DNA of 64,000 bases, from the NCBI GenBank assembly GCA_037903355.1, contig JBAJFE010000029.1, positions 682,001 to 746,000 on the forward strand, given 5' to 3'. Position numbers and translations under genes: made by a program. Origin of the DNA: Trichuris trichiura. Its lineage: Eukaryota; Nematoda; Enoplea; Trichinellida; Trichuridae. How positions within the stretch are numbered: position 1 is the stretch's first letter; every line of letters begins with the position of its first letter. The notes beneath the pieces are model-generated. The model was not told the DNA's origin. It saw nothing but the letters and a program-made list of their open reading frames with translations, and did no database searches. Shown here in pieces: positions 21,837 through 64,000 of the stretch.

Positions 21837-24800
21837 TTAAATAAATATCCGCTTAATGTCGTTTAGGCCAAACGCCTGCGTGCATTTGGGACACTTTCTT
21901 TGCCGCGTATCGTAGCGGCTTTTCACACATTTCGAACAGAATACGTGGAAGCACTTCAGAAGTGTTGTGTCCTTGCGATTTACCTTACAACTTGGGCACG
22001 TCAACAATTCTTTCAAATGACGGTTCTCTTCGTTGAGCACCTCGTCTCGTGGTCCTAAACGGCTCATCTTTTTCACTTTCTCCAATTTGCGTCTTAACGT
22101 AAACACTTCCTCTTGCAGAGCTCTACGCGTCTGCTGCTCATTTTCAATGGCGTCCTTTTTTGACTGTAAGGCCAACTGGGCTTCCTGCAACTGCAATTCC
22201 AAATTTTCCAATTTACATTTCAGCGCAAAAGAATGTCGAGCCACTTCGTTTATCGTCCATTGATTCATCATTATCTGTTCTTCGCGCAGCTTGTTCTCTT
22301 TTTGCAACGACTTGTAATTCTGAAACAAAAGTTGCAACTGCTGTTCGCGCAACTTTTCCGCGTCCTTGTGAGTCTTCAACAAATTGTCCAACACCTCCAC
22401 CTGCGCTTTTAAATCGGCTGTTTCGCTTTGCAACGCCCGAATTTCAATGGCTGTACGGCCAACCTGAAAATATTTTATACGACTCTAGTTCCATACTGTA
22501 CGATTTGAAAAAAGCACACGCGATTGAAACGATTGCCCTCGAAAAAAAGCGCGGTATTAAGATATTTCAAACTAGCTGCTTCTTTTTGTACGGATTTTTA
22601 TGTCCCGTTGAAAAAAACCTTTTATTACTAAAATGTCCTGAGCTTTCGGGTCATTCGAGACCCGTCATCAGCGGTCTTAAGTTGTAAATATGATTTTTGG
22701 AAGCGAATGCCATCTATCGTTTCCGAGAATTTTAAATCCTCCGCAAAAAACCAGTGGTTCAGACCTAAACACAAAGGTAATAAATCTCAGCTCCTTACCT
22801 CTAAACGAAAGTGAAAAAACTATCCTGAGAAAAGGACTGAACTTTGTACCTACTCCTAAACAGCCACCCTTTCTTGACATCATTGCCTCAGTTGAAGACA
22901 GCCTATCTTCAGTTGATCCACAGAAAGCCACGCAGATCAAGCGGGATTTATCTACGTTAATCCTAGATCACCGCTTCAACACCACCCCAAACTTAAGCCG
23001 ATATGAGGTCAACTGCTTAAATCGACTTAAAAGGCAGCCTGATAGAATTATAACTAAAGCAGATAAAGGCAATAGAATTGTCCTACTCGACAGAACCACC
23101 TACAACGAAAAAATGATAACTATCTTGAACACCGACAGTTATACACCTTTGCCCAATGACCCTACAGAATTGTCACGGAAGAATCTTCGTTCCCTTCTCA
23201 TCACATACGGCACAGAAACCAAGGAACCAGAAATCATCAAGATAGCGAAGCATCTTAGGTTCACATCAAATTACAGACCCCCTCAGCTCTACGGCCTGCC
23301 TAAAGTGCACAAACCGGAGGTCCCACTAAGACCAATAGTTTCCACAATTAACAGCACCACAAGTGAGCTCAGCCGATATTTGAAAAAGGTGATCAAACCA
23401 CTAACTGGCAAAGAACCGTCCTTCGTCAAAAATAGTAACACCTTCGTCAACGAAATACGAAAATACCATCTAGAACCGGACGAAATCTTAGTTAGCTACG
23501 ATGTAAAAGATTTATTCCCTAGCATTCCGATTTCGAAAACTCTCGATACACTATACAATCTCCTCAATACAAACACAAATTTGTTCACCAGAACCAAGTT
23601 AAATCCCTTCCACATTGTCAAGTTGGTATCATTCTGTATGCAAGAAAGCAATTACTTCATGTTTGACAATAGGTTCTACAAACAATCTAACGGTGTCCCT
23701 ATGGGCAACCCACTATCTCCTATCCTGGCCGAAATATTCATGGAGAGTTTTGAAAGGCGAATGTTGAAAACGGTAGATAAGCAAATAGCCCCACGACTAT
23801 TCAAAAGATGCGTTGATGACATATTCGTAATTATCAAAGATGGAAAGGAAGAACAGTTTCTAGAATTTCTTAACAGCGTAAGCCCCAATCAAATCGTTTT
23901 TACAATTGAGAAAGAATCAAACCGAACCCTCCCCTTCCTTGACACACTGATTATTCACACTAATCAAGGACTAAAAACCAGAGTTTACAGAAAACCCACG
24001 CACACAGATCAGTACCTCAATTTTTCATCACATCACCCACGATCAGTAATGCGTGGTATCCTCTCCGGAATGATAGACAGAGCATTCAATTTATGCAGTC
24101 CCGATTATCTCCAGCCAGAAATTAACTACATTAGAAAAATTTTCTACAAAAACGGTTATCCTAAATCCTTTATCAACCAAGTGTTCAACCACAAGCTTCG
24201 CACACGTGAGTCTCCAAAGCAAAACACTCCGCACGACACTTGTCTGGTTATTCCTTATGTGACAGGTTTAGGCGAAAAGATTGTCCAATTAGGAAAAAGA
24301 TTAGGCTTCAGAGTCTTTTTCAAGAGTTCGCCCAACCTCAGGGCAATTCTTCGCGCAGACAAAACTAAAATCCCCGCAAACAAAAAGACAGGATTAATAT
24401 ACGCGGTTGAATGTTCTTGCTCGGGGATATATATTTGTGATACGGGAAACACCCTAGAGCATAGATTGAACGAACACATAAAAAAACTCACAAGTTACAA
24501 TAACGCGAAAGCCATACTTAACAACGGCACCAATCTAACCACACAGCGAGGCGGACCAATCGTGGACCCAAAAATTACAATGGAAAAAGCCAAACAAGCC
24601 TCTGCTGTAGTGGAACACGCGACGCAATGCACGCAACCACTCCACCAAAAAGTTTTATGTTACGAAAACAATTTACGGTTAAGAAGAATTAAACAAGCAC
24701 TATATATTAGACACAATATGACTTCCAACTGCGATCAAGGAGTGGACATAAGTAGGATTTGGACGAATATTGTGACGCGGTATAATTGTTGCTCACTCAA

Positions 24801-27800
24801 CGGATGAAATACAAAAACCGGGAAAGAAGAGAAAACAAATAATTAGAACAAATAGAAATGGATAAGATTGCAATATATATGGAACAAAGAAAGAAAAAGA
24901 AAAAGGAAAATAAAGAAGAAAGAAAGAAGAAAAAATGAATGCAATATGGAAAAACAGCGATTCAACAACAAAGACGAATGTTCGAAACAACGAAGACACA
25001 ATCTAGAAGCCATACGGAACAAGAAAAAGAAAAAGAATTGCGCTGACAGACTCAAATGCAAGAACCTACCAACGGAAAACTTTGAAAATGCCCACTTTAA
25101 AGCCCTCGGAAACGATAGATGGCATTCGCTTCCAAAAATCATATTTACAGCTTAAGACCGCTGATGACGGGTCTCGAATGACCCGAAAGCTCCGGACATT
25201 TTAGTAATAAAAGGTTTTTTTTTCAACGGGACATAAAAATCCGTACAAAAAAAGCAACCAAATGAAATTATACGGTCCCGTACGAAGACACTATATTTTA
25301 AACTAGCATTAAAAATGCGCCTCCCAACAAACTGCGCACCAATTTCAAACAAAAGTTTTGTTACTACGCAGAAACAGCATAACTCAACAATCCAACGGAA
25401 ACTGGAAGGGAGGACAAGGACAATAAGACCCCCACCAGGTCCACGCCTGATCCTCCCATATTACGCTGGCCTAGGAGAAAAAATTAAAAGGCTTGGGAAT
25501 AGACTAGGCTTCCAAGTCTGGTTCAAAGGAAACCCAAGCCTCCGTTCAATATTGCGGAATGACAAGGAAAGGGTACCTCCGGACCAGTGCCCTGGGGTTG
25601 TTTATAAAATCAAGTGTGATTGTACATCCACGTACATTGGGGAGACTTGTTATACGTTGGAACACAGGTTCCAGGAACACATGAGGTCCCTAACCAGGTA
25701 CAGGAACGCGGTCAACCGCTTGAACGGAGAACCACCGATTACGTCACGTGGACGTCCGCCCACACTGGATCCACGAGTTGCCATGGAGAGAGCAGGCCAG
25801 AGTTCAGCGGTAGCACAACACGCAGCGCACTGCACGGGTCAACTGCGTGCAAACGTGCTGTGCAAAGAAAGGCACTTTACAATAAGGAAGATAAAAGAAG
25901 CAATTTTTATAAAGTTCAATTCAAACATCAACAGGGATGGTGGCATCGAAATCAGTGACACCTGGACTAACACCATCAGGGCCACCAACTGCTGCCGGAT
26001 AGAAGATTCGCCTGCACAGGGACAATAAAAAGTGCACCTCCGGGTCTTGGAAGCACCCACACCTTATTCAATTCCCTTGCCCCTTCCCCTTTTTATTTTT
26101 TTTTATTCTTTTTCTTTCCTTTATTTCTATTTTTATTTTTTTTATTTTTTTATTTTTTCTTATTTTTCTTTATTTCTTTTTCTTTCCTTTTCTTCCTTCG
26201 TTCCTTTCGGCCTTCCCCGGCTCCCTCAACTGATCACCCGTTTAAATATTGCTTTATTTCCTTTAAAACGACCTAAGTTCCCGTGGTTTAAAGCACTATT
26301 CCCACATAAAGGGCGTGCCAGCAATCTCTGCCATCTACTTGCGCTGAAGACGGGGGCAGGCGTTCCCCGAAAGCTTCGCGATTAAACGTTTTATCGAACG
26401 GGGAGTTTCCGTACAAATTATGCTATTACACACACCCGTTAGGAGGAATTACGTTTTCAAAGCAATACGCAGAAACAGCTTACAAATGGAGGAAAAAATC
26501 TGCGGAAACCATTCTTTGTATACTCAGATTGAGTATCCAGGAAGGTTATTAACTAGCAAACGACTTAAACGACTTTTTGCAGTATTCATATGCGGAATAT
26601 TGCGCAGAACTGAATTTGGAACGCTCTGTCATTGAAAACCTCATTAAACAGATTCACCGCGCATAAAGATTATGGACATACGAATTTTCGTAGCTGCGCG
26701 ACTGACTAGTTCAATAATCGTCAATTAATAGAACAACGAAGGGAAACAGTTAAGTTGAATGGCTCACCTCCATAATCTGCGTAGTGATGAGCGCGTCCTT
26801 TTGGGCGATCTGATTGAGAAGTATAGTATTTTGCTCGAGAGCCTGCTCGTACGCCTGACCCGTACATTCGGCTTCGGTAACAACGGACTGTTCTTCCTGC
26901 AACCCATCGACATAATAAAATAGCAACTACCAAGTAAAAAAACAATTAAAAACCTTTTTGCTCTCCTCCACGGACCGTTTCAATCTGGCAATGTCTTCCA
27001 TTTGGATTTTGTTCAATCGTTGCAATTCTGGAACCATGTCGGAAAATCGCTGCTTGCATGTAGTTCGAATGTAGCATTTTAGCCTTCTATTTTCAACGAT
27101 TAATCGTTTAAGTTTTTCGGCTGCCTCATTTTTGTCATTCGCTGTCTTCAGTGCTTCCAATGAAACTTCGAGGTCGCGACAGACCCGTCGAGAACGCAAT
27201 AGACGTTTTTTCAAAGCACATATTCTAATCAAAGGCTCCTTTGACTTCATGTCGTCATCTTCGACGTCCGATTCTTCGATTTCACCGGGCTCTTTGCAAT
27301 CGTCGCTCACTTGTTCTTCGTCCTTCTCGTGACAACCATTGGTGAATGGTATGAGAACGCAATCTTTTAGCCTAATTTGTTCGTACTCCAACTTTTCCTG
27401 CAACGCTTGAACCATGCTATTTGCCTCGTCAAATTTCATACGCCATCTGCGTGCTTCTCCTCTTAATTGACCTAACTGTCGCCTCAAGCCCTCCTCCAAG
27501 CACATGGATAACACGTTTGAATTGTTTTCCGCCGAGGCATCGATACCATGTTTTCCCTGAGCCTCATGTCTTCGCAATTGTTCGAATAAGTCATCTACCA
27601 ATGAGCGCCAACTACTATTAGCAAACGATATGGCATTTCTGAACGTCTCCTCATCTTTTATTGAAACTTCAGTCGCCGTGTTGAGCCATTCCAAGTGAAG
27701 CTTCGACAAGCTGCCCACTTCTCTTTTTGCCAACTTGTGGAATTCGGCAAAACGATTTAGTTCGACGTACAGAAGATGAAAAATCCACATCGTTGATCGA

Positions 27801-30473
27801 AATAATGGCGTCTCTTTCACGGCATCTTCCGTCGGATGATTTGCCTAAAACAAAATATACAAGGTTAATCAATTTTAAAATGACGACTTGTACGTAATTA
27901 CCTCAAAGCGCAACTTGTCTATCAGTTCTTGGCAGGCATGCAACTGCTTGCTAAGAGAACAAAGTTCATTCCTTCGAGCTTGCGCAAGGTCGCTTTGTTC
28001 GTAATCATTGGTCCACTGCTTATCAAACTGTGAATCTAACGCTAACGATGCATCAACAACGGAAGAGGTTGGCCCATTCTGAGATGTTGTAGCTGTTAGG
28101 GAAGAACCTTGACCATCAGCGCGCTCTTCGTATTGACGCAAGCGCTCCATGAGGTCCCCTATCCTAATTTTGAACTTTTGCTCTCGACAGATCGCCTGTT
28201 CAACCTTATATTCTGCATCTTCGGTTCGGCTTCGCATTTCGTTCACTTCCGTCTCCAACAAGGACAGCTGATCACGCAGTTCGGTATTCTGAAGTGAGCA
28301 ACACGTATTTCAAAACTCATACATATATCTTCCACTCAGAGCAAGCAGCGACACTACCAGAACCGACGCTGTTCGGAAAGTGTTTCTAAATGCTCTGCCT
28401 CATTTCTTTAACTGCTAACGTTTTTAACGTAGCCCTCTATTTTTCCACCATATAATAACATCTGCTTGAAAAACAGAGCATTCTAAACGAGAATACAATC
28501 GCAAAAAGTTTGAAATAAACATTTTAATATTGCTTCCTAAACTACTCGAAACAACTATTCATCACTCCTTTTGAGGTTTGCTTGCAGCAATATGCTAAAA
28601 TAAATTAACTTTTACTCATAGTTAACATTTTTTAAAATCAGAAAAGTGAAATGTTACATCGCCATTGAGTTCTCAACTCTTCTTACTCCTTCCAGACTTC
28701 AACAACAAGGCAATGATTAAGTTAAAAGGGTTTAAAAAACAGCGGAATGATAAAGCAACGAGAATTGCTGGGACAAAAGCAGTAAAAGTTTTTGAAACCT
28801 GCCAATCTATTTACCTTGGTACAGCATTGGCAAAACTGTTTCAAAAGTGAGGGAACAGCAGCTCAAGGCAACTACAACCGACAAAAGAGGAACTGCATCC
28901 TTATTATGTGACATGTTAATTTTAAAAATGTCGACATCCTATTTTAACACGGAAGAAAATGTACAGTAACAGAGATACACTTTAAATGTAAGGAAAGCAG
29001 GTGCCCTTTCTCACCTTCTCTTGTAACATTCAAGCAAAGAAAGTTTAACAATGAAAGTAGGAGCAGCTTTTTGTTGCACTCTGGCAAAATAGAAAACTGA
29101 CACTGTAGGTAAAATACGCAATCATTTAGAAACAATCTGAGTTTACCAATAGTCATAGACAATTGCATCATATTTAGATAAGCTGGTCACTGTCATTGAT
29201 GTGCAGGTTGAGTTGTTCGAGAAGTGGTTTTTCGACTAAAAAACTGAAGTTAATTTAAACGTTCGCTAACAATTAGCTTTCAGCAAGTGAGGAGACACGC
29301 GTGGCAGTGACTTTCCTTCCTGCCTTTTTAAATTTCGATTCGTGAACTGCAATTTAAATAAGGAAAAATAAACTCACATGAATACTGGCGTTTCTGTGTT
29401 CCAGCTCTAAAGCGCTTAACACACGCTGCAATCGTTGATACTCGTTAAAGTAATTTTTCATCTCTAACATATCGCACAGCTTGGAGTTGTCCCCTTCATT
29501 GGTTTGGCCGTTACACGCTGTCGATGCTTCCAAGTACATGTTCAAAAGTTCTTGAATCCTTTCATTTCCTTTAGTCAGCTGATCGAAGCGTTCAATCAGC
29601 TGTACTCCCCAATTATGGGATTCCTGAACCCTACGCGCTAACAGCGTCTCAAACTCTTTGCTGTCCAACTGCGAAGCGTTGTTCAAGAATGTTTCTGCCG
29701 ATTCTGGCGATCCTGCAAAAATAAAACAGCTTAGAACGTTAGGCCTTTGTAAATCGCTTACCTTCTCTCTTGTTATTACTGCTTGTGGCCTTGTCAGCGG
29801 GTAAGCGTTGAAGAAGTAACTGAATGTCTTGATCAAGCTAAATAAAGGCAGTTCTGAAGTATACGTTTTAAATTGTACTCAAAACTCTTACTGCAATACA
29901 TTTTAAGCATATATTAATAGTAAATAATGCAATATTTTGAAAATGGGAGAAAACTAGACCGCTTCTATGTTAAAGTTGCTGAAATGTATTTTAAATCTGT
30001 TTTAATTACAATTTTTGTTGATATTTTTTATTAGATACTGTAAGCATCTAACAGCGCAACAAAAATTCATTTCGCGAGCCTAAGCTAAAAAGCATAAATG
30101 GAAAACAGATATTACTTGATTCCAGTAGCGATTCACCGCGCAGAGCAAAGCGTCGTCTTGCTTCTGACGCATTTCTAGATCTTCTATGCGCTTTCGTAGG
30201 TGCTCTTCGAGGTTCACCCTCTGAGCCAGGCGATCGACCAGTTTTTTATTTTGTGCTTCCAACGTGTGCATTTCCAATTCGCCCTGAAATGGTTACGCGA
30301 ACCAACACTGCCTGATAACTTTTGCACAGTCTTCCACGAACCACTGAGGAGCACGTAGGAAACTTTTCCGATTCATGTGTAAAGATTTTCGACCTTTTGG
30401 GAGCAGTCCGCCTATAGTCACATATGGAGTCCAGATCTATTCCTGCTCCAATCGGCGAACGTTTGGACATATC
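21837..30473 (-). CDS. RNF20: Bre1 (RNF20/40) E3 ubiquitin ligase for histone H2B, 8 exons
   Basis: Bre1 pairs with Rad6 to monoubiquitinate histone H2B during transcription. Exons in coding order are about 30473-30345, 30283-30116, 29837-29762, 29712-29378, 28288-27902, 27844-26954, 26896-26768 and 22463-21837, totalling about 913 residues (human 975). Exon 2 ends with the family block ALLCAVNRYWNQ and exon 3 opens LDQDIQLLLQRLP. Most of the protein is coiled coil with an acidic patch (EIEESDVEDDD). The C-terminal RING has CPSCKVNRKD, then CFHVFCSKCV, then RYDTRQRKCPKC, and ends NDIKRIFI. The exon 1 donor is uncertain by a few codons. The last intron (about 4.3 kb) contains two Penelope-like elements in antisense orientation, and intron 5 is about 1.1 kb. 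Confidence 0.93.
21840..21845 (+). terminator. Poly(A) signal AATAAA for Rabex-5, inside the end of Bre1
   Basis: AATAAA on the plus strand is the complement of the last two sense codons of Bre1. It lies 103 nt after the Rabex-5 stop. If used, the two mRNAs overlap at their 3' ends. Confidence 0.5.
22580..22727 (-). repeat. PLE-A left terminal repeat (inverted arm)
   Basis: Reverse complement of 25105-25254 apart from a few mismatches. It contains a minus-strand hammerhead motif and also the first codons of the plus-strand ORF (ATG at 22690), so the ORF start lies in the repeat. Confidence 0.85.
22635..22676 (-). ncRNA. Hammerhead ribozyme motif, PLE-A left arm
   Basis: On the minus strand: CTGATGA, C, stem II GGGTC/GACCC with a six-base loop, GAAA, then GCTC. 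Stem I CCG here faces AGG in place of CGG, so its first pair is lost and the copy is slightly degraded. Confidence 0.6.
22690..24807 (+). CDS. PLE-A reverse transcriptase with C-terminal GIY-YIG-like domain
   Basis: A single intact 705-codon frame. It has the PLE N-terminal block (VINLSSLPLNESEK, then KGLNFVPTPK), ITKADKGNRIVLLDR, LYGLPKVHKP, the RT motifs SYDVKDLFPSIPI and GVPMGNPLSPILAEIF, and a catalytic CVDDIF where the other families here have YVDD. The endonuclease region starts near residue 560, with a CxC pair (VECSCS) followed by GIYICDTGNTLEHR. The others read YIGETGNTL, so this copy has lost the Gly of YIG and has Asp for Glu. Penelope-like elements reverse-transcribe their RNA at a break made by this nuclease. 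It is the only element here with the complete N-terminal block. Confidence 0.9.
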   Translation: MIFGSECHLSFPRILNPPQKTSGSDLNTKVINLSSLPLNESEKTILRKGLNFVPTPKQPPFLDIIASVEDSLSSVDPQKATQIKRDLSTLILDHRFNTTPNLSRYEVNCLNRLKRQPDRIITKADKGNRIVLLDRTTYNEKMITILNTDSYTPLPNDPTELSRKNLRSLLITYGTETKEPEIIKIAKHLRFTSNYRPPQLYGLPKVHKPEVPLRPIVSTINSTTSELSRYLKKVIKPLTGKEPSFVKNSNTFVNEIRKYHLEPDEILVSYDVKDLFPSIPISKTLDTLYNLLNTNTNLFTRTKLNPFHIVKLVSFCMQESNYFMFDNRFYKQSNGVPMGNPLSPILAEIFMESFERRMLKTVDKQIAPRLFKRCVDDIFVIIKDGKEEQFLEFLNSVSPNQIVFTIEKESNRTLPFLDTLIIHTNQGLKTRVYRKPTHTDQYLNFSSHHPRSVMRGILSGMIDRAFNLCSPDYLQPEINYIRKIFYKNGYPKSFINQVFNHKLRTRESPKQNTPHDTCLVIPYVTGLGEKIVQLGKRLGFRVFFKSSPNLRAILRADKTKIPANKKTGLIYAVECSCSGIYICDTGNTLEHRLNEHIKKLTSYNNAKAILNNGTNLTTQRGGPIVDPKITMEKAKQASAVVEHATQCTQPLHQKVLCYENNLRLRRIKQALYIRHNMTSNCDQGVDISRIWTNIVTRYNCCSLNG
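24808..25104 (+). other. PLE-A 3' untranslated region, purine-rich
   Basis: Strongly A/G-biased sequence between the stop codon and the right terminal repeat, with runs of AAAGAAAG type. The open frames on its reverse strand (24793-24999, 24843-25142) are by-products of this bias. Confidence 0.6.
25105..25254 (+). repeat. PLE-A right terminal repeat
   Basis: Inverted copy of 22580-22727. It runs from CTCGGAAACGATAG to CCGTACAAAAAAAG and contains the intact plus-strand hammerhead motif. Confidence 0.85.
25156..25197 (+). ncRNA. Hammerhead ribozyme motif, PLE-A right arm (intact)
   Basis: Order on the plus strand: stem I CCG, core CTGATGA, C, stem II GGGTC-loop-GACCC, GAAA, minimal stem III G-C with the A-U pair (GAAAGCTC), cleavage triplet CUC, stem I CGG. 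Hammerhead motifs are known in Penelope-like terminal repeats, with stem III so short that a dimer may be the active form. Confidence 0.75.
25315..26028 (+). pseudogene. PLE-B C-terminal fragment: connector and GIY-YIG endonuclease
   Basis: A 237-codon open frame with no RT domain. It aligns with the end of the other PLE proteins from LPYYAGLGEKIKRLG onward, then YKIKCDCTSTYIGETCYTLE and a conserved GRPPTLDPRVAMERAG block, and ends RATNCCRIED. The GIY-YIG motif is intact, unlike in PLE-A. Without RT and a 5' end it is a dead 5'-truncated copy, although its remaining frame is uninterrupted. Confidence 0.8.
26070..26215 (+). repeat. T-rich low-complexity tract in PLE-B 3' UTR
   Basis: Nearly pure T with scattered C and A for about 145 bases. 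It reads as A-rich in the Bre1 pre-mRNA. The bias is the complement of the purine-rich 3' region of PLE-A. Confidence 0.8.
26339..26382 (+). ncRNA. Hammerhead ribozyme motif, PLE-B
   Basis: Stem I TTGCG, core CTGAAGA, C, stem II GGGGG/TCCCC (one wobble) with a six-base loop, GAAA, GCTT (stem III G-C plus A-U, triplet CUU), stem I CGCGA. All parts are present and stem I has five pairs. Confidence 0.7.
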
Positions 30474-31132
30474 CAACACCGAAACAACACGTCAAAAAAA
30501 CGCAAATCACGTTGCAACCCAACTTCTCCCGACTGCCATTTGAGTCATACTGTATACGTTAATTGTGTGTGTGCAAGTACTTATAAAACAGACTGTAAAA
30601 TAGAAAAATTAGGCCCTTTCTCATTCGTTTTAATAAAAACAATAAACTCGCTGTATAAAATTTTGTTATGTTCTTAGTCCCTGTTTACACTGTTATTTTT
30701 TTATTTCCGATTCTAGCCTAAGGACTGTAAATCAAAATCAACTTCTACTCAGAGCATTGCGTTTCCATAAGTAACATTTTTTACTGATGAAAGAAGGGTA
30801 AGCTAGGAGGTTTTTGTTTATTTACGGTAAGCGATTTGCTTCGGTTATTGTTTCCATTAGGCGGGCTAGCATTTTCACATATTCCAAAAATATAATTTTT
30901 TAATGTGACAGCGAGTACTTGTCAAACAGATTAAACGGGACTATGGATACTTCGTGAGCTTGTTTAGCTAAGTTAATGATAACGAGGTGAATACTGTCAT
31001 TTACAGTATTGTGCGAGACATTAAGCAAGAGCGCTGTTGAAACTTTGGCTTATTTTTCTTCAAAGTTTAAGTTTGTTTATTGCCCTTGATGCTTTTGGTA
31101 AGTTGAGCTGTCTAGATTTAGTTCGGTGCAAG
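30474..31132. promoter_or_regulatory. Divergent intergenic promoter between Bre1 and Rpt5
   Basis: 659 bp separate the two start codons, which point away from each other. No other gene fits, so both promoters must lie here. I see no defined promoter motif. Confidence 0.55.
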
Positions 31133-38023: not shown

Positions 38024-38118
38024 GTGATCACTACAGCTTTCAGGTGAGACCGTCACCTGCCTTCAGCGGATAGGGAAAGTTTATCCCCTCCACCTCTCCT
38101 GAAAGCTCTGGTGATCAC
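38024..38118. repeat. Short imperfect palindrome with hammerhead-like half
   Basis: Arms at 38024-38049 and 38095-38118 pair with few mismatches and end in GTGATCAC. The minus strand of the left part reads CTGAAGG, a paired AGGTGA/TCACCT stem, then GAAAGCTG, which is a hammerhead layout with a changed core and a forbidden G at the cleavage site. Confidence 0.5.
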
Positions 38119-38395
38119 CATTTACCAATTGTTCTAACGGGACATTTTCGTAATAATAAAATTATTTACTGTACGTGAAGTTCCCTTGTCCCGTATCAAA
38201 AAGGCACGTTTTGAAAGCTGAAATTTTCTTTGTAACATGATTTTGGCTTTCGAATTGTTTTTTAATAACCATTTTGCCATGACTGTCTGTTGCGAAATTG
38301 ACGACGTAGCTTCCGAAACTCGATAGGCTACGCTTTGGCGAAGGAGCAATGCCAGCCAGAAAGGCTACATGAATAGATTTTGCACAATTAAGTTT

Positions 38396-38752
38396 TATAG
38401 TTGATCTTCTGATTCACGGGTTTGGCCTGTCGGATATATCTGTAAGTAAACTTCGAAGTGCCCTACCAACGAATGGATGAGCAAATTTTAGAGAAAATAC
38501 AGAACAATTTGTATACCGCACGTTTCGGAACTGCTCTTGTTCCGTCGCTAGCAGTGTTGGGGAGCGACACTGCTGACTGCGGTTCCCCAACACTGCTGAC
38601 GACGGATCAAGAGCAGTTCCGAAACGTGCGGTATACAAATTGTTCTGTATTTTCTCTAAAATTTGCTCATCCATTCGTTGGTAGGGCACTTCGAAGTTTA
38701 CCTACAGATACATCCGACAGGCCAAACCCGTGAACCAGAAGATCAACTATGA
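38396..38752. repeat. Near-perfect palindrome: two inverted PLE-C-type terminal repeats
   Basis: Arms of about 168 bp (38396-38563 and 38584-38752) are nearly exact reverse complements around a 20-bp spacer. Each arm matches the terminal repeat of PLE-C (TTCACGGGTTTGGCCTG at the outer end, hammerhead near the centre), but no RT or nuclease sequence remains. It is either a solo inverted repeat pair left by internal deletion or an insertion of terminal sequence only. The two similar open frames on opposite strands are consequences of the symmetry. Confidence 0.85.
38590..38634 (+). ncRNA. Decayed hammerhead motif in solo palindrome
   Basis: CTGACGA and GAAA are present, but stem II has a T-T mismatch (GGATC/GTTCC) and the cleavage triplet is GUG. 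The minus-strand copy in the left arm (about 38515-38556) has perfect stem II but a broken core (CTAGCGA). Both appear inactive. Confidence 0.5.
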
Positions 38753-39133
38753 AACAACCAAAGCCTGTTAAAAGACACACAGTCTTTCGAAATTAAGTTT
38801 TGCCATATAGGCCTTAATGTTCACTATTTTTTTGGAAGTGCTTGAAGTAAAGATTCCTTCGTACTGAGATAACCTTTCATAAATGATCTTAAAAGTGGAG
38901 TATTTGGATCTTTACTATCAGAGCCCGACACCGGCAACTTCAAAGGGTAATACGCTGCCACTGTCAGACTCTGATGGTAAAGACCTGAGTATTTCATTCT
39001 CTCTCTCTATCTCACTCTCATCAAGCGTATATTTCCATAAGTTTACTTCCCAACGTTATCTTTCTGTATTTAATGAGCTCTGAGAGCTCTTGAAAACTGG
39101 ATGCTTCGTAACGGGCTGATGTTTCATAGTTTG

Positions 39134-52990: not shown

Positions 52991-53298
52991 GCAATAAGAA
53001 ATGTTCCTTGAACGTTTCTTCATCAGTGCTTGAAGCTACTTATGACTTGACTTCCTGTGGGAATCCTATTAAGTTTATGTCTCATTCGAACATGGAGACG
53101 GCTTTGCAGGTTTATGAATGCTTTACTTTACGCGGCAATGGTGGTCATTCTCTTTGGGGCTTCACTGTTGCTGTAATGAAAATTTTGATATCCAATCTCG
53201 AACACGTCCGCAACGATCCATGGGGATTTGTTGTTTTGCCGAACGATCTGCCAGAGCTGAATTTGCCCTTTTACTTTAGCCGCGAGGTGCACCCGTGA
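52991..53298 (+). CDS. Possible terminal exon of an orphan protein
   Basis: An acceptor (ATATAG) at 52990 opens a 101-codon frame to a stop at 53298. The content is protein-like, with KKCSLNVSSSVLEATYDL, VYECFTLRGNGGHSLWG and VRNDPWGFVVLPNDLPELN, and includes three cysteines and N-glycosylation sites. The first exon is not identified. The upstream frame at 52642-52767 is phase 0 and does not fit the phase 2 entry needed. Confidence 0.28.
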
Positions 53299-56218: not shown

Positions 56219-56575
56219 GCAATTAAAGCGCAAAATCTTGTTTAAAATTTCCATGCGCCACACCTCTTCTAAGTTATTGCATTGCAGCATGAAAGATAAC
56301 CGCACTCATCTGTTGTGCACATATCCTTTGCAATACAAGATGTAAACGATCATCTGAGCGGCAAACTTCAATGCGGTTGCACTGAACCAAAGAAACTGCC
56401 GCGGGATATACTTCAGCGAACTCTTAACGCTCAAACAGGTTGAATAAAGGCAGATCTAATGGCCAAGCGATTTTGAAATGGCATTACTTATTTCTACCAG
56501 TGTTTTGCCTTTGGTACCACTAGCTGTATTAGTATTGCTGTCGTATATAGTTATGAAGATGATATCTCATATTTG
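56219..56575. other. Intergenic, 3' flank of UNC-93 gene
   Basis: Contains an AATAAAG about 225 nt after the stop. Nothing else seen before the transposon boundary. Confidence 0.4.
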
Positions 56576-56792
56576 ATGTTCTGATTCACGGGTTTGGCCT
56601 GTTGGATGTATCTGTAAGTAAACTGCAAAGTGCCCTACCAACGAATGGATGAGCAAATTGTTAGAGAAATTACAGAACAAATCGAATACCGTACGTTTCG
56701 GAACTGCTCTTGTTCCGTCGTCAGCAGTGTTGGGGAGAAGGTGTTTATTCGGTAAGGGGTTTATATAGCACATGGGGACAATGGGTGTTTGA
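56576..56792 (-). repeat. PLE-C left terminal repeat
   Basis: Reverse complement of 63794-64000. It holds a minus-strand TATATAA (near 56765) and a hammerhead motif. Confidence 0.85.
56687..56730 (-). ncRNA. Hammerhead ribozyme motif, PLE-C left arm (intact)
   Basis: Minus strand: stem I ACTG, CTGACGA, C, stem II GGAAC/GTTCC, GAAA, CGTA (stem III C-G plus A-U, triplet GUA), stem I CGGT. Identical to the right-arm copy. Confidence 0.7.
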
Positions 56793-57965
56793 TTAGTTGG
56801 GTAGGGCGCAGCATTGGAATTTATTAATCAGCGCAGCCCATACTTCACTAACCGCCACACCATTGTCGCGATTAATAGTGGAGTTGCTCTGGATGTAGAG
56901 AGCCTCCTTAATGCGCCTAAGATGTAACAGGGTCTCGCGGCAAATGATCTTCGGGTGCGGGTCGAGTGTGCACCTGGATGCGTGCTCCACGATCACCGAG
57001 GCACTTATCGCTTTTTCCATGGCTTTTCGAGGGTCCGTTGTAGGTGGTCGCCCCGGGCCAGTGGCCTGTACCCCATTGAGTCTACGTTCCGCGTTCTTGT
57101 ATGTCAACACATTCTTCATGTGTTGATCGAATCTCTTAAGTAAAGTGTTGCCCGTTTCTCCTATGTAGGAGGCGTTGCAACCACACTTTATTTGGTAAAC
57201 GACACCGGGTCTGCTGTCAAAAGGAACCTTGATCTTGTCATTCCTCACAATCGAACGAAGATTGCACGAGCTCTTAAACCTAACATTGAAATTTAAGGAA
57301 TGCCCCAGTCTCCTGATCTTTTCACTTAAGCCACTATAGTATGGGAGGAGCAGCACCGGGCGTTGTTGGTTATCGGGCGGGGACGGAGGTAAAGTTTTAT
57401 TTTGTTGGCACTGTTTAATGATGGAATTGATAAATTTGCTGGGGTATCCGTTACTGCATAGTGTGTTGTAAATATGTCTTAACTCAGTGTTTAAATATTC
57501 AGGGTCACAAACATTTAGGGCCCGATCAACCATCCCTTTAACTATACCTCTTTTAACTGAAATAGGGTGGTGGGAAGAAAAATTAAGGTGCCGGTCAGAG
57601 TGGGTGGGTTTTCTATAAACTGTTGTTTTTAACTTATTCCCTTGTTTAATGACCAAGACATCTAGAAAGGGGAGTTTACAATTATTTTCCTTCTCAATGG
57701 TCAGCGTTATCTGGTTGGGGAAGAGACTATTCAGGTGTTCCAAGAGAGTTTCTTCACTGCCTGATTTTATGATGGCAAAGATGTCGTCCACATATCTTTT
57801 GAAAAGGATAGGAGGGGCACAGTCTTGCAGGGTGCTGAAGGCTTTTTCTTCGAGATGTTCCATGAAGATCTCCGCAAGTATGTGGGAGAGTGGACTGCCC
57901 ATAGGTGCACCGTCCTTTTGTGAGAAGAAACTATCCTGGAATCTGAAGTAGTTCCCCTCGCGCAT
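56793..57965 (-). pseudogene. PLE-C left arm: truncated RT plus GIY-YIG in reverse
   Basis: A 390-codon open frame beginning inside the RT (MREGNYFRFQDSFFSQKDG). It includes GAPMGSPLS, the catalytic RYVDDIFAII, LPYYSGLSEKIRRLG, then YQIKCGCNASYIGETGNTL and the end QCCALPN. It lacks the N-terminal half of the protein, so it is an inverted 5'-truncated copy and not a working gene. It differs from the plus-strand copy at few positions, for example His for Pro after GSPLS. Confidence 0.85.
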
Positions 57966-57991
57966 CTGGAATCTGAAGTAGTTCCCCTCGC
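57936..57991. repeat. 26-bp tandem duplication at the PLE-C inversion junction
   Basis: The segment from CTGGAATCTGAAG to CCCCTCGC occurs twice at 57936-57961 and 57966-57991, where the reverse arm meets the forward copy. Confidence 0.8.
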
Positions 57992-59076
57992 CTACACTGA
58001 TCCCAAAACAGCAAAGGAAATCAAAGGATACATCTCCACCCTCATATTAAGCAGCAACAATAATAATCGTCCAACCCCTAACTTGAGCATTTCTGAACGG
58101 AAGGTCATTAAAACCCTTAAGGCCAGAGCTGATATTGTCATCACAAAAGCTGATAAAGGAAACACGGTTGTTATACTGGACAGGGCCTCGTACACACAAA
58201 AGGTTAATGAACTCCTGAGCAACCCTGTTTACCGTCCCATAAAACAAGACCCGACCGACAAGACCCGAGTGCTTTTACAGAACATGTTAGACTCCTTTTC
58301 CAACGAACCTCAGGACCCAATCATTTCTAAAATAAGTCGGATTCTCTCATACACCAGTAACACTAGGTGCCCTGAACTTTACGGCCTTCCCAAAATCCAT
58401 AAACCAGGGGTCCCTCTAAGACCAGTTGTCTCCAGCATTAATAGTGTTACCTCAAGACTTTGTTCTTATCTAAAGACTATAATCCAACCCCTAACCGGTA
58501 AACGCGAGTCCAATGTTAAAAATTGTAAAGAATTTTGTTCCACACTAAAAGACATAGAAATGCAGCCCGGTGACATCATGGTCAGTTACGACGTAAAAGA
58601 CCTTTTCACAAGCGTTCCCGTAAAATATACCATCAACCTGCTTCAAACTCTGTTAGATGCGGACGACACCATCTTGCAGAGGACGAAATTAAACCCCACC
58701 CACATAGTTAAATTAGTATCTTTCTGCATGCGCGAGGGCAACTACTTCAGATTCCAGGATAGTTTCTTCTCACAAAAGGACGGTGCACCTATGGGCAGTC
58801 CACTCTCCCCCATACTTGCGGAGATCTTCATGGAACATCTCGAAGAAAAAGCCTTCAGCACCCTGCAAGACTGTGCCCCTCCTATCCTTTTCAAAAGATA
58901 TGTGGACGACATCTTTGCCATCATAAAATCAGGCAGTGAAGAAACTCTCTTGGAACACCTGAATAGTCTCTTCCCCAACCAGATAACGCTGACCATTGAG
59001 AAGGAAAATAATTGTAAACTCCCCTTTCTAGATGTCTTGGTCATTAAACAAGGGAATAAGTTAAAAACAACAGTTT
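57992..59076 (+). pseudogene. PLE-C RT, N-terminal half of forward copy (interrupted)
   Basis: The frame is open from the inversion junction (TDPKTAKEIKGYISTLIL) through ITKADKGNTVVILDR, LYGLPKIHKPGVPLRP, SYDVKDLFTSVPV, GAPMGSPLSPILAEIF and RYVDDIFAII to KLPFLDVLVIKQG. PLE-D then interrupts it after KLKTTV. Compared with PLE-A it lacks the first 60-80 residues, including the NLSS and NFVPTP blocks, so this copy was already 5'-truncated. Its remainder continues at 62961. Confidence 0.85.
59063..59076 (+). repeat. Target-site duplication of PLE-D, left
   Basis: AAAAACAACAGTTT, repeated at 62956-62969. The uninterrupted sequence is seen in the PLE-C left arm near 57618-57632 (reverse). Confidence 0.8.
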
Positions 59077-59206
59077 TTTCATCACAACTTCATACGGTAT
59101 GTGTTCTTGCCCGTTGATGGGTTCTGAAATTAAACCGAAGCAAATGCCCTACCAACGGATGGATGAGCAATTATTAAGGAAAAATACAGAACAATTCTTA
59201 ACAGTT

Positions 59207-59248
59207 TCGGAGCTTTCGGGACTAACCTTGTCCCGTCGTCAGCGATGG
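59207..59248 (-). ncRNA. Hammerhead ribozyme motif, PLE-D left arm
   Basis: Minus strand: stem I TCG, CTGACGA, C, stem II GGGAC/GTCCC, GAAA, GCTC, stem I CGA. Same as the right copy at 62743-62784. Confidence 0.65.
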
Positions 59249-60709
59249 TGGTAATGGTACTTTTACTCCGATGTTAGGGTATTTATAGGTACTAAGGGGG
59301 GCGCCAGTCGGTATGGAACAACAACCCGTTTTACTGATAACAGATGTCCATATCGAGCTGACCTCCACCCCTTTGTCACGGTTAATGGACCCATTGGACA
59401 TGTTATTGCGAATGAACAGGGACTCCTTTATTTGCCTAAGGCGAAAATGGCTCTCGCGGCAAACGATGGACGGGTGCAGGTCACGTGAACATTGAGAGGA
59501 ATGCTCAGCAACCGCGGAGGTGTTCTTCGCTCTTTCCATGGCTTGTAACGGCGGAATAGTTCTGGGACGTCCCCGACGTAACCTGTATATTCCATGTAGT
59601 TCTCTTCCGCGGATCGGTAACTCTTGAGCGCGTTCATGTGTTCTTTAAATCTGTCAAATAGGGTGTTGCCCGTTTCTCCTATGTAGGAGGCGTTGCAATC
59701 ACAATTAATCACATAAACGACGCCAGGTCTCTGTTCGAATGGGACCTTGATCTTATCGTTCCGTACTAAGGAACGAAGGTTGGGGGAAGACTTGAAGAAA
59801 ATGCGGAAGCCGTACTGGCGACCCAGACGTTGCAAGTGTTCCCCCAGGCCGACGTAGTACGGAATGGTGAGGACAGGAAGACGATCCCTTTCACTATTTG
59901 AGGAGGAATCGGTCGGGTTCAACCTTCGCGCTATGGTGGAGGAGACGAAGGTTTTTGGGTATCCATTTTTCTCCAACGTCATCGCAATGTGGTGTAACTC
60001 AGAATTCAGGAATTCTGGATCACAGATTGCGATGGCGCGGTCCACCATCCCTGTTACTATGCCCCTCTTTACTGACATGGGGTGGTGTGAGGAGAAATGC
60101 AGGTATCTGCCCGAATGCGTTGGTTTCCTATATACTGTTGTCTTTAAAGACGTGGCACTTCGGTGAACCAACACATCAAGGAAGGGAAGTTTCCTGCCTA
60201 CTTCCCTTTCAATTGTAAAGGAAATTTTTCCTGGGAAGATCGAGTTCAGGTGTTTCAAAAGAGCTTCCTCCTGTCCTTTTTTAACAATAGCAAAAATGTC
60301 ATCTACATAGCGTTTAAACAGGCGGGGAGTGTAATGGTTGTCTGGACTTTCGAAGGCAAGTTCCTCTAGGTGTTCCATGAACAACTCAGCGAGGACCGGG
60401 GAAAGCGGACTGCCCATTGGTGCTCCCTCATTCTGTCGGAAGAAGCTTTCTTGAAACCTGAAGTAATTCCCTTCACACATACAGAACGAGACTAACTGTA
60501 CTATTTGACAAGGCAACAGTTTTGTTCTCTCACTTAAGCTGCTGTCCCCGTCCAATAGGGTTTGTAGTCTGTTCAGGGTGTGTGAAATGGGGATGCTGGT
60601 GAAGAGATCCTTCACATCGTAACTTACCAGAAAGTCTGATTTTGAGACGTGGTACGAGCGTAGGGAAGTGCAGAAGTCCGTGTGGTTGGTTACGTGAGAG
60701 TCCATTCCT
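59222..60709 (-). pseudogene. PLE-D left arm: reverse truncated RT/GIY-YIG with frameshift
   Basis: Starts inside the RT before SYDVKDLFTSIPI and includes RYVDDIFAIV, LTIPYYVGLGEHLQRLG and YVINCDCNASYIGETGNTL. One A is missing relative to the forward copy near 59604, shifting the frame after SYRSAEE. The rest continues in another frame from about 59539 down to 59222. A homopolymer difference near the end also alters the C-terminus. It is a dead partial copy. Confidence 0.85.
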
Positions 60710-62726
60710 CAACTTCGTTCCTACTCCTAAGACGGTGCCTTTCCTTGACGTCATAGCGTCAACAGAAATGAGCCTAACTAGGATGGAATCAAGTAAGGCG
60801 GACGAGATTAAAGGCGCCATTTCGGGTTCATTGCAGCGTATGGACAGATTTGTAAAGCATAATCTCAACCGCATTGAGAGGGACGTAGTTAATAAACTGA
60901 AAAAGAGGGACGATCTTATTATCACCAAGGCTGATAAAGGCAATGTGGTGGTGCTTTTGGACAAGACGACTTATGTGGACAAAATGTTGTCGTTGCTAAA
61001 CAGCACCACTTACACGCCAATTCAGTCAGATCCAACTCCACAGGCTAGAACTGAGCTGCGGAAGATCCTTCAGTCCGTCGCGGAACTATCAAAGGAGAAT
61101 ACCATCACCTCCATCCGTAAAAGGTTGCATTTCAAGAGTAACAGCGTATGCCCTCAGCTATACGGCCTTCCAAAGGTCCACAAACCTGGGGTACCTTTGA
61201 GACCAGTTGTATGCAGTGTAAACAGTGTCACATCGCAACTGTGTGTTTACCTCAAAGGTATCATCCAACCGTTGACCGGAGGAATGGACTCTCACGTAAC
61301 CAACCACACGGACTTCTGCACTTCCCTACGCTCGTACCACGTCTCAAAATCAGACTTTCTGGTAAGTTACGATGTGAAGGATCTCTTCACCAGCATCCCC
61401 ATTTCACACACCCTCAACAGGCTACAAACCCTATTGGACGGGGACAGCAGCTTAAGTGAGAGAACAAAACTGTTGCCTTGTCAAATAGTACAGTTAGTCT
61501 CGTTCTGTATGTGTGAAGGGAATTACTTCAGGTTTCAAGAAAGCTTCTTCCGACAGAACGAGGGGGCACCAATGGGCAGTCCGCTTTCCCCGGTCCTCGC
61601 TGAGTTGTTCATGGAACACTTAGAGGAACTTGCCTTCGAAAGTCCAGACAACCATTACACTCCCCGCCTGTTTAAACGCTATGTAGATGACATTTTTGCT
61701 ATTGTTAAAAAAGGAGAGGAGGAAGCTCTTTTGAAACACCTGAACTCGATCTTCCCAGGAAAGATTTCCTTCACAATTGAAAGGGAAGTAGGCAGGAAAC
61801 TTCCCTTCCTTGATGTGTTGGTTCACCGAAGTGCCACGTCTTTAAAGACAACAGTATATAGGAAACCAACACATTCGGGCAGATACCTGCATTTCTCCTC
61901 ACACCACCCCATGTCAGTAAAGAGGGGTATAGTGACAGGGATGGTGGACCGCGCCATCGCAATCTGTGATCCAGAATTCCTGAATTCTGAGTTACACCAC
62001 ATTGCGATGACGTTGGAGAAAAATGGATACCCAAAAACCTTCGTCTCCTCCACCATAGCGCGAAGGTTGAACCCGACCGATTCCTCCTCAAATAGTGAAA
62101 GGGATCGTCTTCCTGTCCTCACCATTCCGTACTACGTCGGCCTGGGGGAACACTTGCAACGTCTGGGTCGCCAGTACGGCTTCCGCATTTTCTTCAAGTC
62201 TTCCCCCAACCTTCGTTCCTTAGTACGGAACGATAAGATCAAGGTCCCATTCGAACAGAGACCTGGCGTCGTTTATGTGATTAATTGTGATTGCAACGCC
62301 TCCTACATAGGAGAAACGGGCAACACCCTATTTGACAGATTTAAAGAACACATGAACGCGCTCAAGAGTTACCGATCCGCGGAAGAGAAACTACATGGAA
62401 TATACAGGTTACGTCGGGGACGTCCCAGAACTATTCCGCCGTTACAAGCCATGGAAAGAGCGAAGAACACCTCCGCGGTTGCTGAGCATTCCTCTCAATG
62501 TTCACGTGACCTGCACCCGTCCATCGTTTGCCGCGAGAGCCATTTTCGCCTTAGGCAAATAAAGGAGTCCCTGTTCATTCGCAATAACATGTCCAATGGG
62601 TCCATTAACCGTGACAAAGGGGTGGAGGTCAGCTCGATATGGACATCTGTTATCAGTAAAACGGGTTGTTGTTCCATACCGACTGGCGCCCCCTTAGTAC
62701 CTATAAATACCCTAACATCGGAGTAA
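60642..62726 (+). CDS. PLE-D reverse transcriptase plus GIY-YIG endonuclease
   Basis: An open frame of 694 codons. Element-like sequence begins at LNFVPTPK near 60708. The first 22 or so codons read antisense through the reverse arm and are not native. RT blocks: ITKADKGNVVVLLD, LYGLPKVHKPGVPLRP, SYDVKDLFTSIPI, GAPMGSPLSPVLAELF and RYVDDIFAIV. The connector and nuclease carry a CxC pair and NASYIGETGNTLFDRF, with intact YIG and Glu, and a downstream RGRPRT block. The N-terminal NLSS block of full-length PLE proteins is missing, so translation would need a start supplied by the junction. It is the least damaged nuclease-intact copy here. Confidence 0.88.
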   Translation: MRRGTSVGKCRSPCGWLRESPFLNFVPTPKTVPFLDVIASTEMSLTRMESSKADEIKGAISGSLQRMDRFVKHNLNRIERDVVNKLKKRDDLIITKADKGNVVVLLDKTTYVDKMLSLLNSTTYTPIQSDPTPQARTELRKILQSVAELSKENTITSIRKRLHFKSNSVCPQLYGLPKVHKPGVPLRPVVCSVNSVTSQLCVYLKGIIQPLTGGMDSHVTNHTDFCTSLRSYHVSKSDFLVSYDVKDLFTSIPISHTLNRLQTLLDGDSSLSERTKLLPCQIVQLVSFCMCEGNYFRFQESFFRQNEGAPMGSPLSPVLAELFMEHLEELAFESPDNHYTPRLFKRYVDDIFAIVKKGEEEALLKHLNSIFPGKISFTIEREVGRKLPFLDVLVHRSATSLKTTVYRKPTHSGRYLHFSSHHPMSVKRGIVTGMVDRAIAICDPEFLNSELHHIAMTLEKNGYPKTFVSSTIARRLNPTDSSSNSERDRLPVLTIPYYVGLGEHLQRLGRQYGFRIFFKSSPNLRSLVRNDKIKVPFEQRPGVVYVINCDCNASYIGETGNTLFDRFKEHMNALKSYRSAEEKLHGIYRLRRGRPRTIPPLQAMERAKNTSAVAEHSSQCSRDLHPSIVCRESHFRLRQIKESLFIRNNMSNGSINRDKGVEVSSIWTSVISKTGCCSIPTGAPLVPINTLTSE
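62702..62709 (+). promoter_or_regulatory. TATA-like box in PLE-D terminal repeat
   Basis: TATAAATA just before the ORF stop and about 40 nt upstream of the hammerhead. By position it could be part of an internal terminal-repeat promoter. Confidence 0.35.
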
Positions 62727-62742
62727 AAGTACCATTACCACC

Positions 62743-62784
62743 ATCGCTGACGACGGGACAAGGTTAGTCCCGAAAGCTCCGAAA
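62743..62784 (+). ncRNA. Hammerhead ribozyme motif, PLE-D right arm (intact)
   Basis: Stem I TCG, core CTGACGA, C, stem II GGGAC-loop-GTCCC, GAAA, GCTC (stem III G-C and A-U, triplet CUC), stem I CGA. Confidence 0.7.
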
Positions 62785-62955
62785 CTGTTAAGAATTGTTC
62801 TGTATTTTTCCTTAATAATTGCTCATCCATCCGTTGGTAGGGCATTTGCTTCGGTTTAATTTCAGAACCCATCAACGGGCAAGAACACATACCGTATGAA
62901 GTAGTGATGAAGATCCACTGCCCCGTTAAGAAACACCCTGTGTTCAAAAAAAAAA

Positions 62956-62969
62956 AAAAACAACAGTTT
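62956..62969 (+). repeat. Target-site duplication of PLE-D, right
   Basis: AAAAACAACAGTTT following a longer A run. PLE-C sequence resumes directly after it (TATAGAAAACCC). Confidence 0.8.
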
Positions 62970-63793
62970 ATAGAAAACCCACCCACTCTGACCGGCACCT
63001 TAATTTTTCTTCCCACCACCCTATTTCAGTTAAAAGAGGTATAGTTAAAGGGATGGTTGATCGGGCCCTAAATGTTTGTGACCCTGAATATTTAAACACT
63101 GAGTTAAGACATATTTACAACACACTATGCAGTAACGGATACCCCAGCAAATTTATCAATTCCATCATTAAACAGTGCCAACAAAATAAAACTTTACCTC
63201 CGTCCCCGCCCGATAACCAACAACGCCCGGTGCTGCTCCTCCCATACTATAGTGGCTTAAGTGAAAAGATCAGGAGACTGGGGCATTCCTTAAATTTCAA
63301 TGTTAGGTTTAAGAGCTCGTGCAATCTTCGTTCGATTGTGAGGAATGACAAGATCAAGGTTCCTTTTGACAGCAGACCCGGTGTCGTTTACCAAATAAAG
63401 TGTGGTTGCAACGCCTCCTACATAGGAGAAACGGGCAACACTTTACTTAAGAGATTCGATCAACACATGAAGAATGTGTTGACATACAAGAACGCGGAAC
63501 GTAGACTCAATGGGGTACAGGCCACTGGCCCGGGGCGACCACCTACAACGGACCCTCGAAAAGCCATGGAAAAAGCGATAAGTGCCTCGGTGATCGTGGA
63601 GCACGCATCCAGGTGCACACTCGACCCGCACCCGAAGATCATTTGCCGCGAGACCCTGTTACATCTTAGGCGCATTAAGGAGGCTCTCTACATCCAGAGC
63701 AACTCCACTATTAATCGCGACAATGGTGTGGCGGTTAGTGAAGTATGGGCTGCGCTGATTAATAAATTCCAATGCTGCGCCCTACCCAACTAA
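62961..63793 (+). pseudogene. PLE-C C-terminal half of forward copy: connector and GIY-YIG
   Basis: Continuation of the frame broken at 59076. It has a YRKPTHS-type block, MVDRALNVCDPEYLN, LPYYSGLSEKIRRLG, YQIKCGCNASYIGETGNTL and GRPPTTDPRKAMEKA, and ends QCCALPN. It is identical in protein to the left reverse arm over this part. It is separated from its RT by the 3.9-kb PLE-D insertion, so the element is inactive. Confidence 0.85.
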
Positions 63794-63819
63794 TCAAACA
63801 CCCATTGTCCCCATGTGCT

Positions 63820-63826
63820 ATATAAA
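63820..63826 (+). promoter_or_regulatory. TATA-like box in PLE-C terminal repeat
   Basis: TATATAA lies 27 nt after the ORF stop and about 40 nt upstream of the hammerhead, the same layout as in PLE-D. Confidence 0.35.
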
Positions 63827-63856
63827 CCCCTTACCGAATAAACACCTTCTCCCCAA

Positions 63857-63898
63857 CACTGCTGACGACGGAACAAGAGCAGTTCCGAAACGTACGGT
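63857..63898 (+). ncRNA. Hammerhead ribozyme motif, PLE-C right arm (intact)
   Basis: Stem I ACTG, core CTGACGA, C, stem II GGAAC-loop-GTTCC, GAAA, CGTA (triplet GUA), stem I CGGT. Four stem I pairs, one of them a G-T wobble. Confidence 0.72.
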
Positions 63899-64000
63899 AT
63901 TCGATTTGTTCTGTAATTTCTCTAACAATTTGCTCATCCATTCGTTGGTAGGGCACTTTGCAGTTTACTTACAGATACATCCAACAGGCCAAACCCGTGA

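Follow-up and report, generated by a model that had tools for sequence, protein, structure and literature searches.

The window analysed here, a 64-kb stretch of DNA, comes from contig JBAJFE010000029.1 (positions 682,001 to 746,000) of the Trichuris trichiura genome, which spans 72.7 Mb in 62 contigs. It contains pieces of four families of Penelope-like elements (PLEs), called A to D, whose terminal repeats carry a minimal hammerhead ribozyme motif. Pfam searches of ten open reading frames (ORFs) from the window found host genes in three (aminopeptidase P, and COG4 twice), no match in four, and RVT_1 in three, above the curated cut-off in two and below it in the third, which gives the window a PLE-type reverse transcriptase (RT). 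The top protein matches of the family A RT were from Trichuris muris and T. suis. A tblastn search with a T. muris homologue (P0001) delimited the seven coding pieces listed below, at 44-57% identity to that protein, and the proteins of families A-D were 46-59% identical to one another over their main matches, with shorter C-D pieces reaching 64%. We take P0001 and its kin to be PLE proteins from their domain order and an observed YIGET motif. GIY-YIG had no Pfam match in the ten window ORFs, and its motif expression matched none of the seven pieces; PF01541, presumably the same domain, was found in one (P0086) of the 120 homologues listed. The terminal repeats have the inverted or direct arrangement of PLEs. 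Family A consists of a long right arm and a short inverted left arm, and family C is made of two head-to-head arms, the right one split by family D at 59078/62911. Beyond D, the C protein continues with residues that overlap those before it (474 and 471), and the AAAAACAACAGTTT at both edges of D is read as a target-site duplication. The features are:

22640-22671, minus strand: family A hammerhead within the inverted terminal repeat; the first pair of stem I is broken
22681-24807, plus strand: PLE RT ORF of family A (tblastn 22750-24792; Pfam RVT_1, Trichuris homologues)
25161-25192, plus strand: hammerhead of family A, 3' of the ORF, predicted cut after 25192
25342-26001, plus strand: PLE C-terminal ORF fragment of family B (tblastn)
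26344-26376, plus strand: hammerhead of family B, predicted cut after 26376
38034-38066, minus strand: decayed hammerhead from another family, with CTGAAGG and G at position 17
38392-38755, unstranded: head-to-head solo terminal-repeat palindrome of family C type (arms 38392-38563 and 38584-38755)
38596-38628, plus strand: right-arm hammerhead of the solo palindrome, GUG rather than NUH, predicted inactive
56692-56724, minus strand: hammerhead of family C, left arm
56799-57971, minus strand: family C left arm, coding piece of the PLE from RT to C-terminus (tblastn; RVT_1 only below cut-off)
57987-59078, plus strand: RT coding piece of the family C PLE, right arm, split by the nested D element and continuing at 62960 (tblastn)
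59078-62911, unstranded: family D element, head-to-head, nested within the family C element and flanked left and right by AAAAACAACAGTTT
59210-59242, minus strand: hammerhead of family D, left arm
59306-60699, minus strand: left-arm coding piece of the family D PLE, in two tblastn matches
60708-62684, plus strand: PLE RT ORF, family D right arm (Pfam, tblastn)
62702-62709, plus strand: TATAAATA box 5' of the family D hammerhead
62747-62779, plus strand: hammerhead of family D, right arm, predicted cut after 62779
62960-63787, plus strand: C-terminal coding piece of the family C PLE, right arm, beyond the D insertion (tblastn)
63819-63826, plus strand: TATATAAA box, with the main family C copy start (63849) 30 nt downstream
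63849-63861, plus strand: putative mRNA leader of family C, including the 5' strand of stem I
63862-63894, plus strand: hammerhead of family C, right arm, predicted cut after 63894

A first-pass annotation, made from the letters of the window, had placed hammerheads in the terminal repeats of all four PLE families, and this was borne out. A strict pattern, CTGANGAC-N12-24-GAAASSTH, which requires the core letters and an NUH triplet, matched seven sites in the window (22671-, 25161+, 26344+, 56724-, 59242-, 62747+ and 63862+). About 0.02 were expected, since the reversed control gave 23 matches in the whole genome; the strict motif with C after CTGANGA gave 4758. CTGANGA alone was a weak signal (44 matches against 27.7 expected, the largest of 100 shuffles giving 40). 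All seven strict sites lie in PLE terminal repeats. Six are on the same strand as a PLE coding piece and 3' of it, and 22671- is in an inverted copy of such an end. The window motifs recur throughout the genome: 678 places for A, 558 for C and 275 for D at up to two mismatches, and 74 for B at up to three, with none for the control in each case. In all four families stem III is two base pairs without a loop, a rudimentary form as in the small PLE hammerheads.

Two further hammerheads in the window are decayed. The one at 38596 ends GAAACGTG, where G at position 17 violates NUH, and its palindromic partner arm reads CTAGCGA; the one at 38066-, from a further family, has CTGAAGG and again a G at position 17 that violates NUH. 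The NUH triplet ascribed to the terminal repeats is present at the seven strict sites, where the pattern demands it, and not at 38596, and the intact stem I ascribed to family A is lacking in the left copy (22671-), where A replaces C just 3' of the cut and the first pair is lost. The covariance-model search proposed in the same annotation gave nothing: Rfam models run on the window returned no hammerhead at the gathering score, nor any among ten matches at E ≤ 10. The best Rfam match, mir-3913, on both strands and below gathering, was the PLE palindrome at 38.5 kb and a false lead to an RNA gene. This palindrome (38392-38755) is a near-perfect 172-nt inverted repeat of a family C-like PLE terminal repeat in which the ribozyme is disabled.

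Four families within 42 kb, which had been offered as an argument for selection, are weak evidence alone, and it is the genome sample that carries the covariation. In this sample, contig 1 contributed 54 merged stretches (173 kb), which together with the window yielded 113 candidates, of which 81 passed a filter for one extra base before stem II; 73 of these were distinct, and they formed 25 families at 80% identity. Twelve of the 25 fail a stricter filter, leaving 13. The candidate scan had demanded pairing, and 100 listed matches (of the 4758), taken by pattern only, served as an unbiased check.

Double-sided changes among the 25 families were most numerous at the third pair of stem I (I3, 15 families) and the fourth pair of stem II (II4, 13), followed by II3 (7) and III2 (4), and at each of these the observed pairing was reached by none of 1000 shuffles. 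Signals at I1, I2, II1 and II5 were weaker (matched by 7, 8, 27 and 11 of 1000 shuffles), II2 was nearly invariant and uninformative on covariation, and I4 and I5 were at chance (198 and 891 of 1000). Stem I is therefore 3 bp long. The stricter set of 13 families retained I3, II3 and II4 (0 of 1000), while III2 was reached by 8 shuffles. Pairs at I3 and II4 switch among CG, GC, TA and AT, and stem II was paired in 113 of 125 cells, compared with 26 to 73 after sliding by one or two bases. Among the 100 pattern-only matches, on which no pairing rule was imposed, at least four of the five stem II pairs formed in 91 with one extra base, in 4 with none and in 11 with two, and positions 15.2 and 16.2 were complementary in 96, where the pattern alone predicts about half. 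In other words, three stems covary: a 3-bp stem I, stem II, and the second pair of stem III.

Alignment of many genomic copies contained the compensatory changes in stems I and II that had been named as the test of the annotation. Those in stem II were confirmed across both the 25 families and the pattern-only set; in stem I they extend to the first three pairs, and the stems of 4-5 bp described for B and C did not hold up, pairs 4 and 5 being like shuffled sequence and family-specific at most. The stem III changes stood at the second pair, and pairing there was likewise confirmed on the pattern-only set. It is well supported by these comparisons that selection has kept the RNA fold while the stem sequences changed.

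The extra C directly after CTGANGA, noted earlier in families A to D, proved to be general: it is the form counted in the 4758 matches against 23, with stem II in the one-extra-base register in 91 of the 100 listed. With A, G or T in its place there were 704 matches against 153 for the control, and among 100 of these that were listed, stem II was in the one-extra-base register in 61 (T 43, A 13, G 5), in the register without extra base in 3, and missing in 36. Roughly 90% of the extra bases are C and most of the others T, as would be expected if the C of a CG decays to T. One extra pyrimidine between A9 and stem II is the rule in this genome. Checked as a type I hammerhead, the motif has one extra base, the limit for comparison being that in the available part of PMC10085705. 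When the natural sequences were folded, the extra C paired with G12 at P 0.987 (A), 0.900 (B), 0.995 (C) and 0.982 (D), and among the 73 distinct sequences the C-type (n=55) gave P above 0.9 for this pair in 42 and above 0.5 in 46. G12 is the general base of the hammerhead according to passages of PMC6155905.

The extra base was not found for PLE hammerheads in the literature searched, a set that did not include Cervera and De la Pena 2014 or Lunse, Weinberg and Breaker 2017. Among the full-text matches listed for the extended motif strings, only designed trans-acting hammerheads were related, the others being unrelated by title. Outside the host, 60 pattern stretches in viral_contigs gave no PLE relative, and 123 in genome_contigs gave one distant match in a bacterial metagenome-assembled genome. 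Hammerhead patterns in viral contigs occurred in 16 stretches with the extra C and at least 120 without it; all five stem II pairs with at least two of three stem I pairs formed in 1 of 16 with the extra C (L169) and in 12 of 122 without it (120 loci listed), and these pattern scans found no other PLE with the extra base. The L169 contig (IMGVR_UViG_3300047160_021265), judged phage-like from its ORFs, has a hammerhead-like motif with C after CTGANGA and a 6-bp stem II. Another viral contig (L220) has two hammerhead-like motifs about 570 bp apart, without extra base.

The places where copies begin were mapped for family C. The tail just 3' of the cut occurs at 231 places, of which the 100 listed, exact over 23 bases, were used, and the end of a copy was taken as the upstream limit of its homology to the window's C copy, counted from the cut. 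The largest class, 32 of 100 (29 loci, two with a common flank), ended at -44 to -48, with 21 at -46, which is 30 nt downstream of the first T of TATATAAA, a TATA box. A further 25 read through beyond -70, 2 ended at -49 to -69, 14 (9 loci) on either side of stem-loop II, at -13 or -26, 4 at -2, and 23 were scattered from -4 to -43. Because of its TATA spacing, the main start is likely the mRNA 5' end of uncut RNA, about 13 nt before the ribozyme. The family C ORF has its ATG at +122, counted from the cut, in 5 of the 7 arms that were searched (4 loci). For family D, 29 places matched: all 24 with zero or one mismatch were intact on the cut side, and one (C7:1696201) of the five with three mismatches lacked the GAAA stretch, apparently through deletion; none of the 29 looks truncated at the cut. 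In the C and D copies examined, the RNAs that were reverse transcribed appear mostly to have kept their original 5' end, upstream of an uncut ribozyme.

Copy arrangement was counted in listings of exact matches, 100 places each for A (of 678) and D (of 275), which miss mutated tandem partners such as those of L300 and L308. Same-family neighbours within 4 kb were head-to-head in 44 cases, tandem in 1 and tail-to-tail in 2 (n=47). Among the D pairs, nine with a spacing of 1.1-3.6 kb were read at their left ends (all of L300, the first 661 bases of L303-L310), and in two a direct 5' repeat lay behind the inverted one, with its hammerhead broken in L300 and nearly intact in L308; the other seven had the inverted repeat only in the stretch read. 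Between two head-to-head family A hammerheads (L302, C1:1808500-1811260) there is an unrelated, non-PLE ORF of 537 aa, which by eye looks like a Tigger/pogo-type transposase. Four loci (L077, L078, L079 and L081) have the structure arm-GGAAC-ACGAGCA-GTTCC-arm, a fifth (L080) has the same hairpin with an antisense loop, and the five lie in differing flanks. The arms of L104, L121, L135 and L136 end at the same place, stem-loop II, and the family D pair C26:782945/782990 has the spacing of these fold-backs by its coordinates. The simplest account of the palindromes would be that cDNA snaps back on stem-loop II. Head-to-head PLE repeats are known and self-priming has been proposed for Penelope elements in the portion consulted of PMC3846280; according to the available part of PMC11167929 a PLE protein cuts and extends both strands, which would yield two copies joined head to head.

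The motif, its covariation, the extra base and the copy ends can be read in the sequence itself; the 5' end (from TATA spacing), the latch and the trigger are inferences. The reading that we favour, and hold to be probable, is that these are minimal type I PLE hammerheads with a selected core and selected pairing, that the extra pyrimidine forms an inactive hairpin with G12, that the reverse-transcribed RNAs were mostly uncut, and that cleavage would be triggered by a partner or a protein. Since stem III has two pairs and no loop, a single motif would be unable to close it and would depend on a second motif or on the protein of the element. The family C motif would lie about 13 nt from the mRNA 5' end, its cut some 120 nt before the ORF begins, and it recurs in the 3' terminal repeat. 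The extra pyrimidine, by pairing with the general base, should keep a lone motif inactive, and the RNAs copied into DNA would be mostly those uncut at the hammerhead site. The invariant core argues for selection on cleavage, which is likely the selected function, but the C and D copies examined, which point to mostly uncut RNAs as those reverse transcribed, and the scarcity of the tandem arrangement that a cis dimer would need (1 of 47 close pairs in the exact-match listings of A and D) weigh on the other side. A more specific version, possible though rather doubtful in our estimate, makes the extra pyrimidine a conserved safety latch on G12: it would keep the capped mRNA, with its ribozyme so near the 5' end, whole, translatable and usable as template, with release only by a partner RNA or protein, and stem-loop II in the cDNA would act as the snap-back primer that founds inverted copies.

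Another proposal is that cleavage by the ribozyme shortens the retrotransposition template at its 5' end and that the cleaved RNA is what is copied, template preprocessing having been suggested in the accessible text of PMC6431247. The four positions at the cut held 4 family C ends where 2.3 were expected from the scattered rate (P 0.20), one eighth of the TATA-linked class of 32, yet all 4 share position -2, where 0.6 were expected (P 0.003). Two more arms (L087 and L088, outside the 100 and chosen because they had already been seen to start there) begin at -2, and the inverted arm of L088 starts exactly at CGG. However, in the six direct arms examined (L070-L073, L087 and L088) TA precedes CGG, two bases upstream of the predicted product, and the filler between the head-to-head arms at these loci ends with that TA; two further one-mismatch places have AA (C7:945512) and CA (C47:803900) instead. 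With none of the 29 family D places looking truncated at the cut either, the C and D ends do not support starts at the cut as the main route, and we regard trimming as distinctly unlikely. As an aside, L070 and G000:C2:2844576 have nearly identical filler before the arm and look like copies of one locus. Cleavage of multimeric transcripts into units by cis dimers of tandem repeats, as for PLE and retrozyme hammerheads, is a published model (available text of PMC7761336) to which the palindromic stem III (AGCT/ACGT), the existing tandem runs and the direct, nearly intact 5' copy of L308 would lend themselves. The neighbour counts above go against it, with a single tandem among the exact-match pairs (mutated partners being missed), as does the direct 5' repeat in just two of nine D pairs, one with a broken hammerhead, and we think it unlikely. 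One such run, from another family, has three identical hammerheads in tandem at 475 bp (G000:C1:2085522, 2085997 and 2086472).

Selection might instead act on the stem-loop and not on cleavage, with stem-loop II as a protein-binding or snap-back element. The 14 arms (9 loci) ending on its sides, five of the loci being complete palindromes around it, and the spacing of the C26 family D pair, which fits the same centre, speak for this, but the invariant CTGANGA, GAAA and A15.1-U16.1 and the covarying stem I and III pairs are left unexplained; we hold this, too, to be improbable. That the motifs reflect shared repeat ancestry without selection on the fold is very improbable. The copies are related, the covarying-pair counts include related families and the scan behind the 25 families demanded pairing, yet core and pairing persist at 46-59% protein identity, I3 and II4 flip among all four pairs, and the pattern-only set, in which no pairing was demanded, still pairs.

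Several points weigh against the favoured reading of selected, mostly uncut hammerheads. The four ends at -2 may represent a small cut-linked class. The end map covers the best-preserved family C copies (100 of 231), and the mRNA 5' end is placed from DNA features; cleaved RNAs are perhaps poor templates, in which case copy ends would be no measure of cleavage in cells. As for the latch, 9 of the 55 C-type sequences do not exceed P 0.5 for the pair with G12, the T-type (n=13) exceeds 0.9 in 1 and 0.5 in 7, and none of the 5 of 73 distinct sequences with A or G exceeds 0.5, all under nearest-neighbour energies that ignore the non-canonical core.

Minimal or small PLE hammerheads were reportedly described by Cervera and De la Pena in 2014 and by Lunse, Weinberg and Breaker in 2017. 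They share with the motifs here the type I core, the rudimentary stem III, the position in PLE terminal repeats and the very high copy number, and they are proposed to act as dimers, activity as dimers having been reported for the class; they differ in that here the extra pyrimidine after A9 is the rule and tandem copies are rare in A and D. A hammerhead with an extra core nucleotide, beside A9, is said to have been found in the viroid CChMVd by De la Pena and Flores in 2001. There, too, one extra core nucleotide is kept though it is reported, in the part of PMC11014351 available, to weaken cleavage; that case concerns one viroid, whereas here there are thousands of retroelement copies in which the base is mostly C and able to pair with G12. 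In the Poseidon PLE of Anolis carolinensis (PAc), the accessible text of PMC11167929 describes cleavage as needing protein, unprocessed RNA as the template that dominates in vitro, and an absence of RNA-seq reads ending at the cut. PAc resembles the present elements in having a hammerhead near the ORF start and uncut RNA as the dominant template, in its case in vitro. By arithmetic alone, the 26 nt between its cut and a start codon located where stem II begins would be accounted for by one extra base after A9, a 5-bp stem II and a 6-nt loop; PAc differs in that its start codon lies within the motif, in contrast to the ATG at +122 in family C. The pairing with G12, the extra nucleotide of the viroid and the protein need in Anolis may belong together. 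Head-to-head inverted repeats with junction palindromes are also found in the Penelope of Adineta vaga (part of PMC3846280), where the word hammerhead is absent from the main text; in the present genome, stem-loop II of the hammerhead is the centre of five junction palindromes and the end point of four further arms. That PLEs carry hammerheads was already known, as the first-pass annotation had said, from passages of PMC7761336, PMC6431247 and PMC6155905. The minimal PLE hammerhead is thus a known kind, and what is new is the map of copy starts.

In a compact genome with thousands of copies, the ends of the copies report which RNAs were reverse transcribed. Templates that were mostly uncut would agree with the in vitro work on Anolis and would separate retention of the ribozyme from processing of the template, and the extra base offers a testable one-nucleotide hypothesis.

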